Both the position numbers and the translations under genes were made by a program. DNA of 64,000 nucleotides from Flavobacteriaceae bacterium (GTDB lineage: Bacteria > Bacteroidota > Bacteroidia > Flavobacteriales > Flavobacteriaceae): NCBI GenBank assembly GCA_030835825.1, contig JAURRA010000016.1, positions 62,001-126,000 on the forward strand. Direction: 5' to 3'. Shown piece by piece: positions 50,373 to 56,956 of the stretch (its first letter is position 1; each line of letters opens with the position of its first letter). A model generated the notes under the pieces. The model made no database searches. It had not been told where the DNA came from and saw only the letters and a list, made by a program, of their open reading frames with translations.

Positions 50373-51862
50373 TGTTACTTGAAACCATAATAATCATTGT
50401 ATACTCATCGGCTTTACTGATGATTTTCGCCTATGCTTTATCGCAGCTTAATTTGCTTTTCAATTATTTGTCGAGCAAAAAAAGAGAGGTTTCGCGAGAA
50501 TTGTTAGACACGTCGAATCCTGATAAGGTGCCTTTTGTAACAATTCAGTTACCCGTTTACAACGAGAAATACGTCATGGAAGGTTTGTTAGAAAATATTG
50601 CTCTAATGGACTACCCCAAAGAAAGACTGGAAATTCAAGTACTAGATGACTCGACTGACGAATCTGTTGACACAACTGCCAAACAAATCAAAGAACTTCA
50701 AAAGAGTGGATTAGATATTCAACATATTTTGAGGGAAGACCGGACAGGCTTCAAGGCTGGGGCTCTCAAAGCTGGCCTCAATACAGCCAAGGGCGAATTT
50801 ATCGCAATTTTCGATGCGGATTTTCTGCCTAAAACAGATTGGTTGCGAGCTACTATATCTCATTTTGAAGATCCAAATATCGGGGTAGTTCAAACCAGAT
50901 GGTCGCATTTAAACCGGGATTTTTCTATTTTGACCCAAGTTCAAGCATTTGCCTTGGACGCACATTTCACCCTTGAGCAGGTAGGTAGAAACACCAAAGG
51001 TCATTTTATAAACTTCAATGGTACGGCCGGTGTTTGGAGAAAATCCTGCATTCTAGATGCTGGCAACTGGGAGGGTGATACTTTGACGGAAGACTTGGAT
51101 TTGAGTTACCGTGCTCAACTGAAAGATTGGAAATTTACCTACTTAGAACATGTTAAAACTCCAGCCGAATTACCCGTAGCCATCAGTGCTGCGCGATCTC
51201 AACAATTCAGATGGAACAAAGGAGGCGCAGAAAATTTTAGAAAAATGGTTCGCCAGGTTTTGGCCAGTGAAAGCATCTCGAATAAAACCAAATTCCACGG
51301 TGTATTGCATCTACTCAATAGTACGATGTTTTTAAATGTGCTAATCGTTGCTATTTTGAGTATACCCATGTTGTATATCAAAAATGAATACGCTCACCTC
51401 AAAACCTATTTTATAGTGATGAGCTTTTTTGTTGCGAGTACTCTAATTTTTTTTGCCTGCTACTGGGTCATGTATAAAAACACCTACGGTGGCGGGGTTA
51501 ATAATTTCGCCCGATTTACTGTGATGTTTTTTGCATTTTTCTCAATAGCTATGGGATTCTCTTTTCACAATTCCATCGCTGTTATCGAAGGCCATCTGGG
51601 TAAACGATCTGACTTTATTCGAACCCCAAAGTTCAACCTCAATCAAATCAAAGAAAACTGGAAATCTAATGTCTATTTAAAAAAGAATCTTTCACCGAAT
51701 GTCATCGTTGAAGGACTCTTAATGATTTACTTTGGCTTTGGTTTATACAGTGCTTTTATTGTTGGTGATCAAGGCGGAGATTTTGGTCTTTTCCCATTCC
51801 ATCTGATGCTTTTTTTAGGATTTGGATTTGTTTTTTTTAAATCGATTTCATCTAAATTGTAA
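50372..51862 (+). CDS. Cellulose-synthase-like membrane glycosyltransferase (GT2)
   Basis: 496 residues: one N-terminal membrane helix (about 5-30), a large GT-A domain and about four C-terminal helices. Processive-type D,D,D,QxxRW set is visible: VLDDSTDES, IFDADFLP, LTEDLDLSYR and QQFRWNKG. TNPDKVPFVTIQLPVYNEK-like sequence begins the catalytic domain. Such enzymes make beta-linked glycans or glycolipids; here no BcsB, PilZ or export partner is present, so a glycolipid or short glycan is more likely than cellulose. Coupled to the DPM1-like gene. Confidence 0.88.
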   Translation: MLLETIIIIVYSSALLMIFAYALSQLNLLFNYLSSKKREVSRELLDTSNPDKVPFVTIQLPVYNEKYVMEGLLENIALMDYPKERLEIQVLDDSTDESVDTTAKQIKELQKSGLDIQHILREDRTGFKAGALKAGLNTAKGEFIAIFDADFLPKTDWLRATISHFEDPNIGVVQTRWSHLNRDFSILTQVQAFALDAHFTLEQVGRNTKGHFINFNGTAGVWRKSCILDAGNWEGDTLTEDLDLSYRAQLKDWKFTYLEHVKTPAELPVAISAARSQQFRWNKGGAENFRKMVRQVLASESISNKTKFHGVLHLLNSTMFLNVLIVAILSIPMLYIKNEYAHLKTYFIVMSFFVASTLIFFACYWVMYKNTYGGGVNNFARFTVMFFAFFSIAMGFSFHNSIAVIEGHLGKRSDFIRTPKFNLNQIKENWKSNVYLKKNLSPNVIVEGLLMIYFGFGLYSAFIVGDQGGDFGLFPFHLMLFLGFGFVFFKSISSKL

Positions 51863-51872
51863 CCTCGCCCTG

Positions 51873-53207
51873 ATGGCGGCCAAGTCTGTTCTTCACAACA
51901 ATTATTTTCATTTAGGAGCCGTCGTCCTGGCTGCCTCGCTCTATTTCTATCTGGGCTATTTTGTCGATCGCAGCGACTCTGCCGCATTACTTTGCAGCTA
52001 TGGCGTTCTATTTATTTTAGGCCTTTTTACATACAAATATTCTAGTTTTTCTTTTAATCAATTGGTCGCTCTGGGCCTATTCTTCAGACTGATTTTTTTG
52101 CTTGCCTTGCCATTCCTATCTCAAGATTTTTATAGATTTATTTGGGATGGTCAATTGATATTAGAAGGGATCAACCCATACAGCTACACACCCGATATGT
52201 TGATGCAGAACAGTCGTTTTAATAGTTCTGAAATGGCTATTTTACACCAAGGCATGGGCGAATTAAGCGCCAGACATTATTCCAATTATCCTCCGCTTAA
52301 CCAGCTACTTTTTGCACTGAGTTCATGGTTCGGTCAGGGACAATTACTTTCCAGCACCATCGCTATGAGACTGATTATACTGGTCTCGGAAATAGGTATT
52401 GCCTACACTGGAGCTAAAATATTACAAAACCTAGATTCTAATAAAAAACAAATACTACTTTGGGTGCTCAACCCACTGGTTATCATTGAATTATCTGGCA
52501 ACCTCCATTTTGATGGCGTTATGGCTCTTGGTGTTCTTTGCGGGTTTTATTTACTCCTAAAAAAAAGATGGATATGGGCTGCTTTGGCAATAGCTGCTTC
52601 AATTCACATCAAACTGATTCCTCTGGTTTTGTTACCCCTAATTTGGTCCTTTTTGGGATGGACAAAAGGCCTGAAATTTACCGCCCTGACCATAGGGTTT
52701 GTTCTAATGGGTTCCATACCATTTTTTAACCCCATGCTTGTCCATCATTTCCTTGACAGTTTGAGCTTATGGTTTGAAAATTTTGAATTTAACAGTAGCA
52801 TTTTCAATATATCACAGGAAATTGGCAGATGGATCAGCGGCAAAAACCTGATCTCTCAAATTAGCACAGTCTCCTCCATCATAGTATTTGTAGTTACTAT
52901 AAGTATAGCCCTCAGCAGGCAGGCCAATAATATGGCAAAACTAATTGAAATGTCACTTTGGGTATTTGTCATTTATTTTATGACGGCAACTACTGTTCAC
53001 CCATGGTATTTGGCTCTTCCGTTGCTACTAAGCTTGTTTTCGAAATACAGATTTATGGTGCTATGGAGCGCCTCAGTGATGCTGAGCTATACGGCCTACA
53101 GACAACCCAGTGTAGAAGAGATACCTTGGGTCTTAGCCTTGGAATACATCCCGGTATTTGGATTATTAGTTTGGGAATTGAAACGATTCCAATTTACATC
53201 ATCATGA
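51873..53207 (+). CDS. GT-C polytopic glycosyltransferase, polyprenyl-phosphate-sugar dependent
   Basis: 444 residues from ATG 51873 (MAAKSVLHNNYF); the frame is open to 51822 inside the previous gene, so the later ATG is preferred. About ten membrane helices. The first large loop holds SQDFYRFIWDGQLILEGINPY, the acidic DxxRxxWDG motif of PIG-M/mannosyltransferase-like GT-C enzymes, which take sugar from a polyprenyl phosphate. HPWYLALPLLL near the C-terminus is also typical. Last gene of the ten-gene block; its end overlaps the convergent pseudouridine synthase gene by 14 bases. Confidence 0.82.
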   Translation: MAAKSVLHNNYFHLGAVVLAASLYFYLGYFVDRSDSAALLCSYGVLFILGLFTYKYSSFSFNQLVALGLFFRLIFLLALPFLSQDFYRFIWDGQLILEGINPYSYTPDMLMQNSRFNSSEMAILHQGMGELSARHYSNYPPLNQLLFALSSWFGQGQLLSSTIAMRLIILVSEIGIAYTGAKILQNLDSNKKQILLWVLNPLVIIELSGNLHFDGVMALGVLCGFYLLLKKRWIWAALAIAASIHIKLIPLVLLPLIWSFLGWTKGLKFTALTIGFVLMGSIPFFNPMLVHHFLDSLSLWFENFEFNSSIFNISQEIGRWISGKNLISQISTVSSIIVFVVTISIALSRQANNMAKLIEMSLWVFVIYFMTATTVHPWYLALPLLLSLFSKYRFMVLWSASVMLSYTAYRQPSVEEIPWVLALEYIPVFGLLVWELKRFQFTSS

Positions 53208-53970
53208 TGCTATTGAGCTCAAGCTGCGTCAAATGACGCCAACGGCTTCTGGGCAAATCCTTCTTTGTTAAACTACCAATCATAACACAATCCACCTTGA
53301 TGAGATCATATTTTAGGTGGCCAAACAACTTTCGCAGTACGCCGTTTCCGGTGTTTTTTATCTTAACACCCACTTCATTTTTAGACGAACCCTTGATATA
53401 TGAAATGTCGCTGACATGAATCAAATCGCCTTCAATTTTTATCCCATCTCGAATCGACTTTAAGTGATCGTAGGTCAAATTTTTATCCAAATGCACATGA
53501 AAAAGACGATCTACACCGTGTTTAGAATTAGTGAACTTTTGCATAACGACATCGTCATTAGTAAAAAGCAGTAGTCCTGTTGAATTTCTTCCCAAACGAC
53601 CAATAGGCCGCAAACCACCGCCTGCATTGGCTATTAATTCCATAACCGTTTTTCCTTTGGCGTCACTACTTGTAGTTGCAAATCCTTTTGGCTTATTTAA
53701 TAAGACATAGAGTTTTTTCTCGGGCTGAACACGGGCACCGTCAAACCTAACTTCATCTTCAGGTTTGACCTTATAACCCATTTCAATGACCACTTTGCCA
53801 TTGACAGTTACGCTGCCAATAGATATATGCATATCTGCCTCGCGTCGCGAGCACATGCCTGAATTAGAAATATACTTGTTTAGTCTAATTGATCCATCGT
53901 CAACTGACTTGGGTTGCTTGTCTGACTTTTTTTTAGGAGGACGTGAGCTCGATTTTCTGGCGCTTGGCAT
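53194..53970 (-). CDS. RsuA/RluB-type pseudouridine synthase with altered catalytic motif
   Basis: 258 residues from ATG 53970. The N-terminal tail is basic and low-complexity, followed by an S4 RNA-binding domain (RLNKYISNSGMCSRREAD) and the RsuA/RluB catalytic domain (LLNKPKGFATTSSD). The catalytic motif, normally GRLDxxTxGLLL, reads GRLGRNSTGLLL: Gly127 (codon GGA) occupies the place of the catalytic Asp. The protein may have lost uridine isomerisation and act as an rRNA-binding assembly factor, or the lineage uses another residue. Start: the frame is open to 54018, but the promoter at 53987-53994 lies inside that extension. Confidence 0.87.
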   Translation of the reverse strand: MPSARKSSSRPPKKKSDKQPKSVDDGSIRLNKYISNSGMCSRREADMHISIGSVTVNGKVVIEMGYKVKPEDEVRFDGARVQPEKKLYVLLNKPKGFATTSSDAKGKTVMELIANAGGGLRPIGRLGRNSTGLLLFTNDDVVMQKFTNSKHGVDRLFHVHLDKNLTYDHLKSIRDGIKIEGDLIHVSDISYIKGSSKNEVGVKIKNTGNGVLRKLFGHLKYDLIKVDCVMIGSLTKKDLPRSRWRHLTQLELNSIMMM

Positions 53971-53986
53971 GATGATAATTTGCTGG

Positions 53987-53994
53987 CAAAGGTA
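53987..53994 (-). promoter_or_regulatory. -7 promoter box of the pseudouridine synthase gene
   Basis: TACCTTTG on the minus strand is a perfect TAnnTTTG, ending 17 bases before the ATG at 53970, and fixes that start over the longer frame. Confidence 0.6.
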
Positions 53995-54030
53995 ATCATT
54001 CCGAACTTGTAATATCACATTGAATTTTGA

Positions 54031-54918
54031 CTAGCCTATCGCTACGTCAAATAATGCCAAACTACAGACCCCGATGACCACCCATATCTTGAAAGCATTG
54101 TCAATGATCCAAAATTGACGACTAGATTGGGCCTTAAACATGAGTATTCCCAGCTCTAAAGCAATCAAAATGCTGAGCAAAAAGAAATAAATCATTCTAC
54201 CAATGGGATAGAGATAAACGATACCTACTGCCACCAGACTGATAAGCGAAAGAAGGGTGTAAAATAAATTCTTACTCCGTTGAAGCCCATACCTAACAGG
54301 TATGGTTTGTAGATTTGCTGTAAGATCTCCTTGCATACTTTTCATGTCTTTTGCAACGCGTTTGGCCGATAGCACTAGGAATAGAAAAAAGGCCTGAACG
54401 AAGATAACCTCATCGAAGCTTCTGTAATAAATGGTTACGGCTAAAAACGGGGTAACCACAAGAACAGATGACATGATATTACTCAAAATGGTGAATCTCC
54501 TCAAAAAAGCAGAATACAGGCTAAGGGCCAAAATATAGGTGCCAAAGAATAACAAGGCCCGGTAGGAAACGCTATAGGCCAATATGAGTGCCAGCATTGA
54601 AGTGATGATAGCAACCCATAATTTGGTACGGTCACTTATCATACTATCGATCATGGCCTTTTGGGGCCGATTGATGAAGTCTTTTTTTCGGTCATAAAAA
54701 TTGTTAATAATGTAACCTGCCGCAATGCAGGTTGCCGACGACATGACTATAAGCAGTAATTGAGTGTCAAATAGAATGTCCCTCAAACCCTTTGAGCCCC
54801 CGAGCATATAAATAGCAGCCAAATATTGCCCAACAGCAAGCAAAAGGATATTATACCCTTTGACAACAGAAAAAAGACTGAAAAATTTAAGCAGCACATG
54901 AGGACGTTTGGGGGTCAT
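54031..54918 (-). CDS. UbiA-family prenyltransferase (GGGP/GG-transferase-like)
   Basis: 295-residue membrane enzyme with about eight helices. First catalytic motif is intact, NNFYDRKKD (Asn72, Asp76, Asp80), and the second is KDMKSMQGD. The family moves a prenyl chain to an aromatic or glycerol-phosphate acceptor; relatives in this phylum are usually labelled geranylgeranylglycerol-phosphate geranylgeranyltransferase, but the acceptor here is not established. It is the last gene of an operon with mevalonate kinase and diphosphomevalonate decarboxylase, tying it to isoprenoid supply. Menaquinone synthesis is another possibility. Confidence 0.85.
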   Translation of the reverse strand: MTPKRPHVLLKFFSLFSVVKGYNILLLAVGQYLAAIYMLGGSKGLRDILFDTQLLLIVMSSATCIAAGYIINNFYDRKKDFINRPQKAMIDSMISDRTKLWVAIITSMLALILAYSVSYRALLFFGTYILALSLYSAFLRRFTILSNIMSSVLVVTPFLAVTIYYRSFDEVIFVQAFFLFLVLSAKRVAKDMKSMQGDLTANLQTIPVRYGLQRSKNLFYTLLSLISLVAVGIVYLYPIGRMIYFFLLSILIALELGILMFKAQSSRQFWIIDNAFKIWVVIGVCSLALFDVAIG

Positions 54919-54929
54919 GCCGCTAAAGA

Positions 54930-55856
54930 TTAAAAGTGATAAACGACTTCTAATTTATAATCTTTAAGAAGGGTTTTAGCTTTGTCAATGTCTTCGGTAA
55001 AACCCAAAAAATAACCTCCACCGCCAGAACCACATAGCTTCAAATAATAGCCATTAGTGTCAATACCCTGTTTCCACAATTGATGAAATTTCAGTGGGAT
55101 CATAGGTTTGAAATGCCCTAATACAACCCTAGACAAGGCTTTTGTATTCTTGAATAAACCTTTGATATTTCCAGACAAAAAGTCGTCTACACAAGCGTCT
55201 GTTAATTTGATAAACTTGTTTTGTAGCATTTGTTGGAATGCTGTCTCCTTCATATTGTCAAGGAATATTTTTACCATAGGAGCCGTTTCTCCAGAATATC
55301 CACTGTCTAGCAAAAAAACTGCTCTTTTACCTTGACCTTGATTTGGAATCCCAGTCGGTGTAACATGAGTTTTTGAATGTATCAATATGGGAAGACTCAA
55401 ATAACTATTCAGTGGATCTAATCCAGATGAATTACCGTGAAAATAGGACTCCATAGTGGCGAATGCCTTTTTAAGAGTCATGAGTTTGTCTCGGGTCAAA
55501 TTCTCTAAAACTGTAATCTTATCTTTGGCATATCGATCGTAAATAGCAGCGACTAGGGCACCACTACTACCAACACCATAACCTTGTGGGATAGACGAAT
55601 CAAAGTGTAAACCTTTTAAAATATCAGCTTCCAGTCTCTCATGGTCAAACTGCACGACATTGGAATCTAAAGTTTTTAAATAGACTGCAAATTTTTTAAT
55701 TTCATTGTTAGATATTTCAGCGTCCTCTGTATCACATTGAAAGCTTTTGAGTCCTCCCTTAAAATGATTGTAGGGTATTGAAAGGCCTTTGGAATCTTTG
55801 ATGATTCCATACTCTCCAAAGAGCAATATCTTCGCGTAAAACAAAGGACCTTTCAT
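54930..55856 (-). CDS. Mevalonate kinase-like GHMP kinase
   Basis: 308-residue GHMP kinase. It begins FYAKILLFGEYGIIKDSKGL (substrate-side motif 1), has the ATP loop PQGYGVGSSGALVAA and the third motif LCGSGGGGYFLGF. Placed between mvaD and ubiA with a 4-base overlap and an 11-base gap, it most likely phosphorylates mevalonate or phosphomevalonate in the mevalonate route. The exact position of the phosphate cannot be read from sequence. Confidence 0.85.
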   Translation of the reverse strand: MKGPLFYAKILLFGEYGIIKDSKGLSIPYNHFKGGLKSFQCDTEDAEISNNEIKKFAVYLKTLDSNVVQFDHERLEADILKGLHFDSSIPQGYGVGSSGALVAAIYDRYAKDKITVLENLTRDKLMTLKKAFATMESYFHGNSSGLDPLNSYLSLPILIHSKTHVTPTGIPNQGQGKRAVFLLDSGYSGETAPMVKIFLDNMKETAFQQMLQNKFIKLTDACVDDFLSGNIKGLFKNTKALSRVVLGHFKPMIPLKFHQLWKQGIDTNGYYLKLCGSGGGGYFLGFTEDIDKAKTLLKDYKLEVVYHF

Positions 55857-56956
55857 AAGATTTTATACTCGTTTAATTGTTTTGAGCCTGCGCCCATTTC
55901 ATCACAAATATAGCGACCGTTTTGACAATATGCTACCAAATCTTTCAATATGAAGGCCAAGACCTCCTTTTTGCAGTAATTGGGATACAACAAATGAACA
56001 TTGGCTCCTGCGTCTAGGGTAAAGCAGATTGGAATACCGGTTGCTTGTCTAAATTTCCATACTGCTTGTATAATGGATAAGGTAGCTGGCTGCATCAGCA
56101 GGTAGGACGGATGGCTAGTCATCATCATAGCATGCAAGGTAAGTGCTTCAGATTCAACTATGGAAATAAAACCTGTCAGGTCTCCGTTTGCCAAAATTTC
56201 CAATAAATCAGTTAGATTTTGTTCCGCTTGTTCAAATCGCTTTTGAGCAAAAGGATGTCCGTGCATCAGGTCGTGACCAGAAGTACTACTGACCTGCTTT
56301 TGACCCTCTTCCACAATTAAAATAGTATCTTGATAGCTCGAAAATACATCATGTACTGGTCGATTTAATGTAACACCGACCAAATCAGAACCATGATCAA
56401 TAGCTCCATGATTTCCCCAAGCAACAATGGGACCGCTAATACTTCGGCAGGCACTTCCCGATCCTAATCGGGCTAAGAAGGATGCTTTAGTCAAAAAAAA
56501 TGCCTCAGACATTGTTGGGTGACAACTTTTCTCAATGGACATCAAACACAAAGACAAGGCGGCCATGCCACTTGCACTAGAGGCAATTCCTGAGCTGTGT
56601 GGAAAAGTGTTGGCGGTACGTATGGTGAAATGACCCGCTGTGAGAAATGGCAGAAATTCTAAGGTCTTTTCAAAAAAAGCCTCAATTTTAGGTCGAAACG
56701 ATTCGTTTGCCACATTATCTACCAACACGTCAAAAGAAAACCTTGAGTCATGCAATTTGTCACACGAATAGGTCAATTCTGTAATAGTTTTACAATTCGA
56801 CAATGTAAAGCTCACCGAAGCATTAGCAGGAAGTTGGACAGGCTTTTTCCCCCAATATTTAACCAAGGCAATATTGCTAGGTGCCGACCAAACTACCGAT
56901 TGACTTATCGGCTGTTTTGACGAATAAATCAGTTTAAAGGTATCTTCCGAGATCAT
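55853..56956 (-). CDS. mvaD: Diphosphomevalonate decarboxylase
   Basis: GHMP-superfamily enzyme of 367 residues making isopentenyl diphosphate. Signatures: SAPSNIALVKYWGK (N-terminal motif), SSGIASSASGMAAL (ATP loop), LGSGSACRSISGP and the C-terminal FTLDAGANVHLL containing the catalytic Asp. First gene of the mvaD-kinase-ubiA operon. The -7 box ends 5 bases before the ATG, predicting a leaderless message; no in-frame downstream Met is compatible with the family's start. Confidence 0.93.
   Translation of the reverse strand: MISEDTFKLIYSSKQPISQSVVWSAPSNIALVKYWGKKPVQLPANASVSFTLSNCKTITELTYSCDKLHDSRFSFDVLVDNVANESFRPKIEAFFEKTLEFLPFLTAGHFTIRTANTFPHSSGIASSASGMAALSLCLMSIEKSCHPTMSEAFFLTKASFLARLGSGSACRSISGPIVAWGNHGAIDHGSDLVGVTLNRPVHDVFSSYQDTILIVEEGQKQVSSTSGHDLMHGHPFAQKRFEQAEQNLTDLLEILANGDLTGFISIVESEALTLHAMMMTSHPSYLLMQPATLSIIQAVWKFRQATGIPICFTLDAGANVHLLYPNYCKKEVLAFILKDLVAYCQNGRYICDEMGAGSKQLNEYKIL

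Follow-up and report, generated by a model that had tools for sequence, protein, structure and literature searches.

A probable pseudoenzyme of the RluB/RsuA type in Flavobacteriaceae, possibly kept for ribosome assembly alongside RluF

Introduction

Is an rRNA pseudouridine synthase important for the base that it makes or for its binding of the rRNA? This old question is usually probed with laboratory mutants, and the locus described here poses it for a natural protein. The 64,000-nucleotide stretch of Flavobacteriaceae DNA that we analysed (the window) encodes a pseudouridine synthase homologue with glycine in the place of the catalytic aspartate. The initial annotation left two options for this protein, a non-catalytic rRNA-binding factor or an enzyme whose active site has moved. 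Is the protein dead, and if so, what is it kept for?

Gene structure and surroundings

The gene lies at 53194..53970 on the minus strand and, as an open reading frame from ATG, encodes an RluB/RsuA-type pseudouridine synthase homologue of 258 residues without the catalytic residues. The same frame would run from 53194 to 54018 (minus strand) if translation started at the GTG at 54018. The ATG at 53970 (MPSARK) is favoured over the GTG, because the methionine of the MPxAR motif is common to 4/4 genus members and because a stop sits a few codons upstream in one relative (L007).

Pfam places an S4 RNA-binding domain at residues 29–74 (53749..53886, minus strand). This domain (PF01479) scores 38.4 bits against a cut-off of 22.8, and the PseudoU_synth_2 domain (PF00849) scores 42.2 bits against 26.8. 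With the pseudouridine synthase subfamily model TIGR00093 (cut-off 109.3), the window protein reaches 82.2 bits and stays below the threshold. Another Gly-type protein (L230, 86.9) misses it as well, whereas two Asp-type proteins (L280, 156.3; L251, 143.2) pass.

A GT87-type glycosyltransferase gene (51822–53207, plus strand) is convergent with the synthase homologue, and the 3′ ends of the two genes overlap by 14 bases. Just upstream, at 54031–56956 on the minus strand, are genes for a UbiA-type prenyltransferase, a GHMP kinase (mevalonate kinase-like) and a diphosphomevalonate decarboxylase. Among named loci longer than 8.6 kb, UbiA is found near the gene in 17/17 Gly-type and 30/49 Asp-type cases, and loci of Chryseobacterium and Pedobacter are among those without UbiA nearby.

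The active site lacks three catalytic residues

Direct reading and alignment with Escherichia coli RluB place Gly127 (codon GGA; 53590..53592, minus strand) at the position of RluB Asp110, within the motif GRLGRNSTGLLL. The central claim of the initial annotation, which had given no strand, is therefore confirmed, with the codon running from 53592 to 53590. In E. coli RluB, Asp110 is described as universally conserved and catalytic (PMC3919597).

Two further changes in the active site had gone unmentioned. Phe157 (53500..53502, minus strand) stands at the place of RluB Tyr140, and Gly210 (53341..53343, minus strand) aligns with Arg194 of motif III. The equivalent of the base-flipping Arg108 is kept as Arg125 (53596..53598, minus strand). 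Of the features that mark active enzymes of the RsuA/RluB/RluF family, the window protein thus retains the base-flipping arginine and lacks the aspartate, the tyrosine and the basic residue of motif III.

For E. coli RluB, mutants Y140F and R108A are reported to have 2.8% and 0.6% of wild-type activity, respectively (PMC3919597). Since 8/66 class-level relatives with both Asp and Tyr have no basic residue at position 194, loss at this position alone is no proof of a dead enzyme. Judged by its residues as a whole, the window protein is very probably catalytically dead.

Repeated loss of the aspartate in one bacterial order

We compared 203 genomes, consisting of 187 from the window's family (186 of the 299 searched, plus G002) and 16 members of other families of the order. 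We treat the window's family as Flavobacteriaceae, to which named relatives from the same clade are assigned. The 186 were taken from 283 apparent gene carriers, 97 of which were left out. Two rows were removed before the total of 203 was reached: L060, whose genome was already represented by L011, and the RluF paralogue L209. A further collection of 80 named loci overlaps these genomes and was not added to them.

The aspartate is present in 82 of the 203 genomes and absent from 121. Within the family, the residue at this position is Gly in 97 genomes, Asp in 68, Glu in 11, His in 4, Ser in 2, Asn in 2 and Gln, Ala or Lys in 1 each; the 16 genomes from other families have Asp (14) or Asn (2). 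The window protein belongs to a Gly clade comprising 83 of the 203 genomes with a branch support of 98. All three congeners carry Gly, at 82–86% identity, as do 83/83 clade members, so that the residue is fixed in the clade, a point that the initial annotation had suggested checking.

The named loci divide into 62 with Asp and 18 with Gly. Gly-type genera include Winogradskyella, Lacinutrix, Mesoflavibacter, Pontimicrobium, Leeuwenhoekiella, Gilvibacter and Aureisphaera, and also Nonlabens, in which the surrounding motif is different; Asp-type genera include Polaribacter, Tenacibaculum and Muricauda. Elsewhere in the class, outside the order, Asp and Tyr are present in 66/66 rows from 39 families, the flipping arginine in 65 and Arg at position 194 in 58; these 66 rows are a sample of the 111 class-level genomes that gave a match.

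A gene tree calculated with the trait columns left out requires a minimum of 15 changes between Asp and non-Asp. Dollo reconstruction on this tree gives 17 losses of Asp, of which one falls in another family. Apart from the window's clade, several loss branches have low support (34, 13 and 5).

Fifteen of the 299 family genomes have a weak match only and seem to be without the gene (e.g., G148, G212, G241, G061 and G067), and five are more than 90% complete. As far as these matches tell, the gene is not needed universally in the family. RluF is present in 14 of these 15 genomes, and the remaining one (G137) is 64% complete. Some lineages have very divergent copies (e.g., L195, L197, L198 and L208).

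Several variants were seen in passing. Flavobacterium loci (L260, L264–L268, L291, L295 and others) keep Asp and Tyr and have an altered motif III (e.g., TSNVKIVR versus SGRNRIVR), with GRMDK where others have GRLDR; this form is perhaps an early or alternative stage. A Flavobacterium-like copy is also encoded on a contig labelled as a Bifidobacterium breve MAG (L297), a bin that is probably contaminated. In other families of the class (e.g., L371–L399), the open frame often spans 400–700 residues, whereas for most members of the window's family it spans about 250–340. This contrast suggests an N-terminal extension that is not the same in the two groups. In-frame stop codons occur inside the match in G382, G418, G346 and G366, possibly reflecting decaying copies, frame errors or match ends that overrun the gene.

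Residues fixed in the Gly clade

The Gly clade has a residue pattern of its own. Position 140 (Asp140 in the window protein; 53551..53553, minus strand) is Asp or Glu in 82/83 clade members, whereas it is Gly in 76/82 Asp-type genomes. Gly208 (53347..53349, minus strand) is invariant (83/83) and corresponds to Arg or Lys in 77/82 Asp-type genomes, and Cys228 (53287..53289, minus strand), present in 82/83, corresponds to Arg in 81/82. Position 157 is Phe in 81/83 clade members and Tyr in 76/82 Asp-type genomes, and position 210 is mostly Ser (37/83) or Thr (36/83) across the clade. Arg125 is kept in 83/83, and both Arg42 and Arg43 of the S4 domain are present in 83/83 Gly-clade and 82/82 Asp-type genomes.

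The invariant Gly127 is encoded by all four glycine codons (GGA 30, GGT 24, GGG 16 and GGC 13), and because all of them specify the same residue in 83/83 genomes, Gly127 itself looks to be under selection. The same observation refutes a sequencing or assembly error at a single codon, the chance of which is negligible.

The RluB residues His131 and Pro132, which bind the bulge, are replaced in the clade (mostly by Asn and Ser), and the equivalent of Arg138 is Arg in 81/83. Because these two residues of the bulge loop are replaced, the rRNA site bound by the clade proteins may differ from that of RluB.

Fold and selection

An AlphaFold model of the window protein has a mean pLDDT of 83.7, with values below 50 only at residues 1–9 and 14–23. 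VIA-align matches the model to RluF, RsuA and RluB with Z-scores of 22–23, and with both Pfam domains above their cut-offs, the earlier statement that the S4 domain and fold are intact holds.

Within the genus, pN/pS of the window gene is 0.09–0.14, with pS near saturation in most pairs; the single unsaturated pair gives a dN/dS of 0.064. For the RluF paralogue in the same genomes, pN/pS is 0.08–0.175. Measured in this way, purifying selection on the gene is strong and level with that on RluF. No in-frame stops occur among the family matches listed. The view that the gene is not decaying is borne out by the pN/pS values in the range of RluF, the confident model and the structural matches. On the sequence evidence, the Gly type has been conserved as a state with a distinct residue signature and is not the outcome of drift.

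The same genome encodes an intact RluF

Four proteins of the window genome match PF00849: two are RluA-type by motif, one is RluF and one is the window protein. The search for a second RluB, proposed in the initial annotation, thus found none among these four matches. The RluF paralogue (L209; G000 C5) passes the NCBIfam RluF equivalog cut-off (322 versus 318) and groups with E. coli RluF (support 100/99), with identities of up to 62% within the group. RluF rows keep Asp, Tyr, Arg194 and Arg108 in 61/61 cases (60 genomes, with the window genome represented twice), and 42 of these 60 genomes carry a non-Asp RluB-like protein. By these residues, the active site of RluF is intact in the window genome.

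Catalytic loss is linked to RluF

Presence of RluF was scored by direct searches in 160 genomes and by the match count of the family search in 43. One genome (G090), in which the RluF match covered residues 76–243 only, was scored as present. Across the 203 genomes, Asp occurs together with RluF in 51 and without it in 31, and non-Asp proteins occur with RluF in 118 and without it in 3. These three genomes are G257 (80% complete), G318 (76%) and G007 (93%); RluF is present in G116 and G264, which are congeners of the latter two. Among Asp proteins, the full catalytic set (Asp, Tyr, Arg or Lys at 194, and Arg108) is found in 30/31 of those from genomes without RluF and in 28/51 of those from genomes with RluF.

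A Fisher test of Asp versus RluF yields p = 2e-11 but ignores kinship, and we do not rely on it. In an independent-pairs test with nine pairs, on average 0.9 pairs agree, 0.1 disagree and 8.0 tie. When the Dollo losses are set against branch length, 1 of 17 falls on RluF-lacking branches, which account for 9.73 of a total length of 33.04 (p = 0.021). A two-trait likelihood test on the gene tree, with regain of Asp barred, gives a likelihood ratio (LR) of 19.8, or 21.0 with the three RluF gaps treated as unknown, and the same test for the three-residue set gives 21.4. With regain of either trait barred and the three gaps unknown, the LR is 7.9 for Asp loss given RluF (p = 0.005), 31.3 for RluF loss given Asp and 38.8 for both directions. 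Reducing the 83-tip clade to one tip leaves values of 7.7 (Asp loss), 18.2 (RluF loss) and 24.7 (both). The fitted rate of RluF loss is 0 to 0.05 once the protein is dead, versus about 0.8.

Catalytic loss and the presence of RluF are thus linked on the gene tree, a tree in which several of the loss branches are poorly supported. The likelihood link holds both ways, so that genomes tend to keep one or both of the enzymes intact.

Ancestral target

A tree of 24 rows, in which the E. coli branches are very long, does not separate RluB from RsuA as the ancestral type. By analogy, active relatives could act on U2605 of 23S rRNA (RluB) or on U516 of 16S rRNA (RsuA). We matched a site pattern for H93 in 58/149 genomes. 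The RluF/RluB positions, the only two bases left free in the pattern, read TT in every matched genome. Among the matches are 19 genomes of Gly type that have RluF and 5 of Asp type that do not; the other 91/149, among them the window's own assembly, have no exact match. A change of the target base as the cause of enzyme loss is not supported: both uridines are present in 58/58 matched genomes, the 19 of Gly type included, and these genomes therefore give no hint that disappearance of the base led to the death of the enzyme.

Proposed function and alternatives

We propose, with more confidence than doubt, that the window protein is a pseudoenzyme derived from an active RluB/RsuA-type ancestor and kept to bind rRNA during ribosome assembly, while RluF carries out the chemistry. 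For the present job taken by itself, rRNA binding in assembly, the chances seem even or slightly better. That the protein binds rRNA at all we infer from the kept residues and from homology. According to this model, an active rRNA pseudouridine synthase would have turned into a pseudoenzyme whose S4 domain and groove would still bind the ancestral rRNA stem-loop. Arg125 would be inserted and the target uridine would be held and not isomerised, and the protein would serve as a chaperone or checkpoint of assembly. RluF would supply the modification that matters, so that loss of catalysis could be tolerated. In E. coli, RluB and RluF share a stem-loop, in which RluF acts on U2604 and modifies U2605 slightly (PMC3919597).

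Between the two options of the initial annotation, the non-catalytic one is favoured over a moved active site, because three catalytic positions are changed and because the aspartate has varied replacements in other lineages. That the enzyme is still active, with another residue such as the clade-specific acidic residue 140 standing in for the aspartate, is very improbable. The contrast at position 140 between clade and Asp-type proteins would fit such a substitution, and the 2.8% activity left to E. coli RluB Y140F (PMC3919597) means that a Tyr-to-Phe change need not abolish catalysis. However, the motif-III arginine has gone as well, and Ala, Gln, Lys, Ser, Asn, His or Glu occupy the Asp position in other lineages. 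Moreover, residue 140 in the model starts the helix that follows strand 131–137 and, from this topology, is predicted to lie about one strand's length from residue 127. A slowly decaying relic, redundant with RluF and devoid of function, is very improbable for the window protein. Apparent loss of the gene from 15/299 family genomes, of which 14 have RluF, agrees with this idea, as do the very divergent copies, and a relic may be what some divergent lineages contain. It does not appear to describe the window's clade, with pN/pS as low as that of RluF, no stops inside the family matches listed and new residues that are invariant across 83 genomes.

A more substantial alternative, although still an unlikely one, is that assembly is not the main role of the dead fold, which would have been repurposed to bind a different RNA or a small molecule, or to regulate RluF by binding to it. 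The clade-fixed new residues Gly127, Gly208, Cys228 and Asp/Glu140, two of which lie at former active-site motifs, suggest a changed pocket. Once the protein is dead, loss of RluF is rare or absent, as would be expected of partners as well, and mevalonate and UbiA genes lie near all 17 of the Gly-type loci longer than 8.6 kb. This neighbourhood is, however, common to Asp-type loci and hence no mark of a new role, and the kept S4 and base-flipping arginines point to structured rRNA.

The assembly model can be extended from the window protein to the family. On several occasions, one of them ancient and at the base of a large clade, Flavobacteriaceae may have converted an rRNA pseudouridine synthase into a ribosome factor that is fixed, non-catalytic and equipped with a new conserved pocket. 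The condition for each conversion would be that RluF takes charge of the chemistry at the stem-loop of the peptidyl transferase centre. This wider proposal is tentative, and we would rate its chances as somewhat short of even. Within one bacterial order, nature seems to have repeated the experiment of the laboratory mutants many times over, with the protein kept. If true, binding and modification, two roles of one rRNA modification enzyme, would have been separated naturally. Named genera are available on both sides (Gly versus Asp), and the prediction about RluF is clear.

Pseudoenzymes are already known, as are catalysis-independent roles of rRNA modification enzymes. In the titles and abstract openings of the open-access literature, a body that leaves most subscription journals outside, we found no report of an RluB-type protein from Flavobacteria that is catalytically dead. 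The same sources contain no mention of proteins of the RluB/RsuA type in which catalysis was lost naturally, repeatedly and in a lineage-fixed manner, with a link to RluF.

Comparison with known systems

Like E. coli RluB (PDB 4lgt, 4lab and 9cl9), the window protein combines S4 and PseudoU_synth_2 domains and keeps the equivalent of Arg108, and its model superimposes on 4lgt with a VIA-align Z of 22.2 (rmsd 3.8, 231 residues). Unlike RluB, it has Asp110, Tyr140, Arg194, His131 and Pro132 replaced, and it scores 58 bits against the NCBIfam RluB cut-off of 290. The best structure match is RluF (PDB 3dh3; VIA-align Z 23.1, rmsd 3.4, 228 residues). The best NCBIfam score is also to RluF, yet at 124 it is far from the cut-off of 318, a threshold that the genome's own, separate RluF does pass, with its active site kept. 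The 16S pseudouridine(516) synthase RsuA (PDB 1ksk) has the same domains and aligns over 229 residues (VIA-align Z 22.6, rmsd 9.1), but the window protein reaches only 89 bits against a cut-off of 275 and has lost the catalytic residues.

Relatives lend some support to a binding role. RsuA is described as preferring an assembly intermediate (PMC7356742), and the title of PDB entry 9cl9 reads 'WT 12C IM fraction, B-b3 with RluB bound'. Against such a role, in an E. coli strain lacking ten modification enzymes, expression of RluB is reported to have given no rescue of 50S assembly, and inactive RluC was likewise of no help (PMC11194073). In favour of it, the same source states that catalytically inactive RlmB still aids 50S assembly in E. 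coli. The window protein, as we propose it, would resemble the E. coli variants RlmB E198A and RlmL N309A, which are reported to stimulate growth or 50S assembly without modifying (PMC11194073). Those proteins are laboratory mutants of methyltransferases, whereas the loss described here is natural, clade-wide and found in a pseudouridine synthase homologue.
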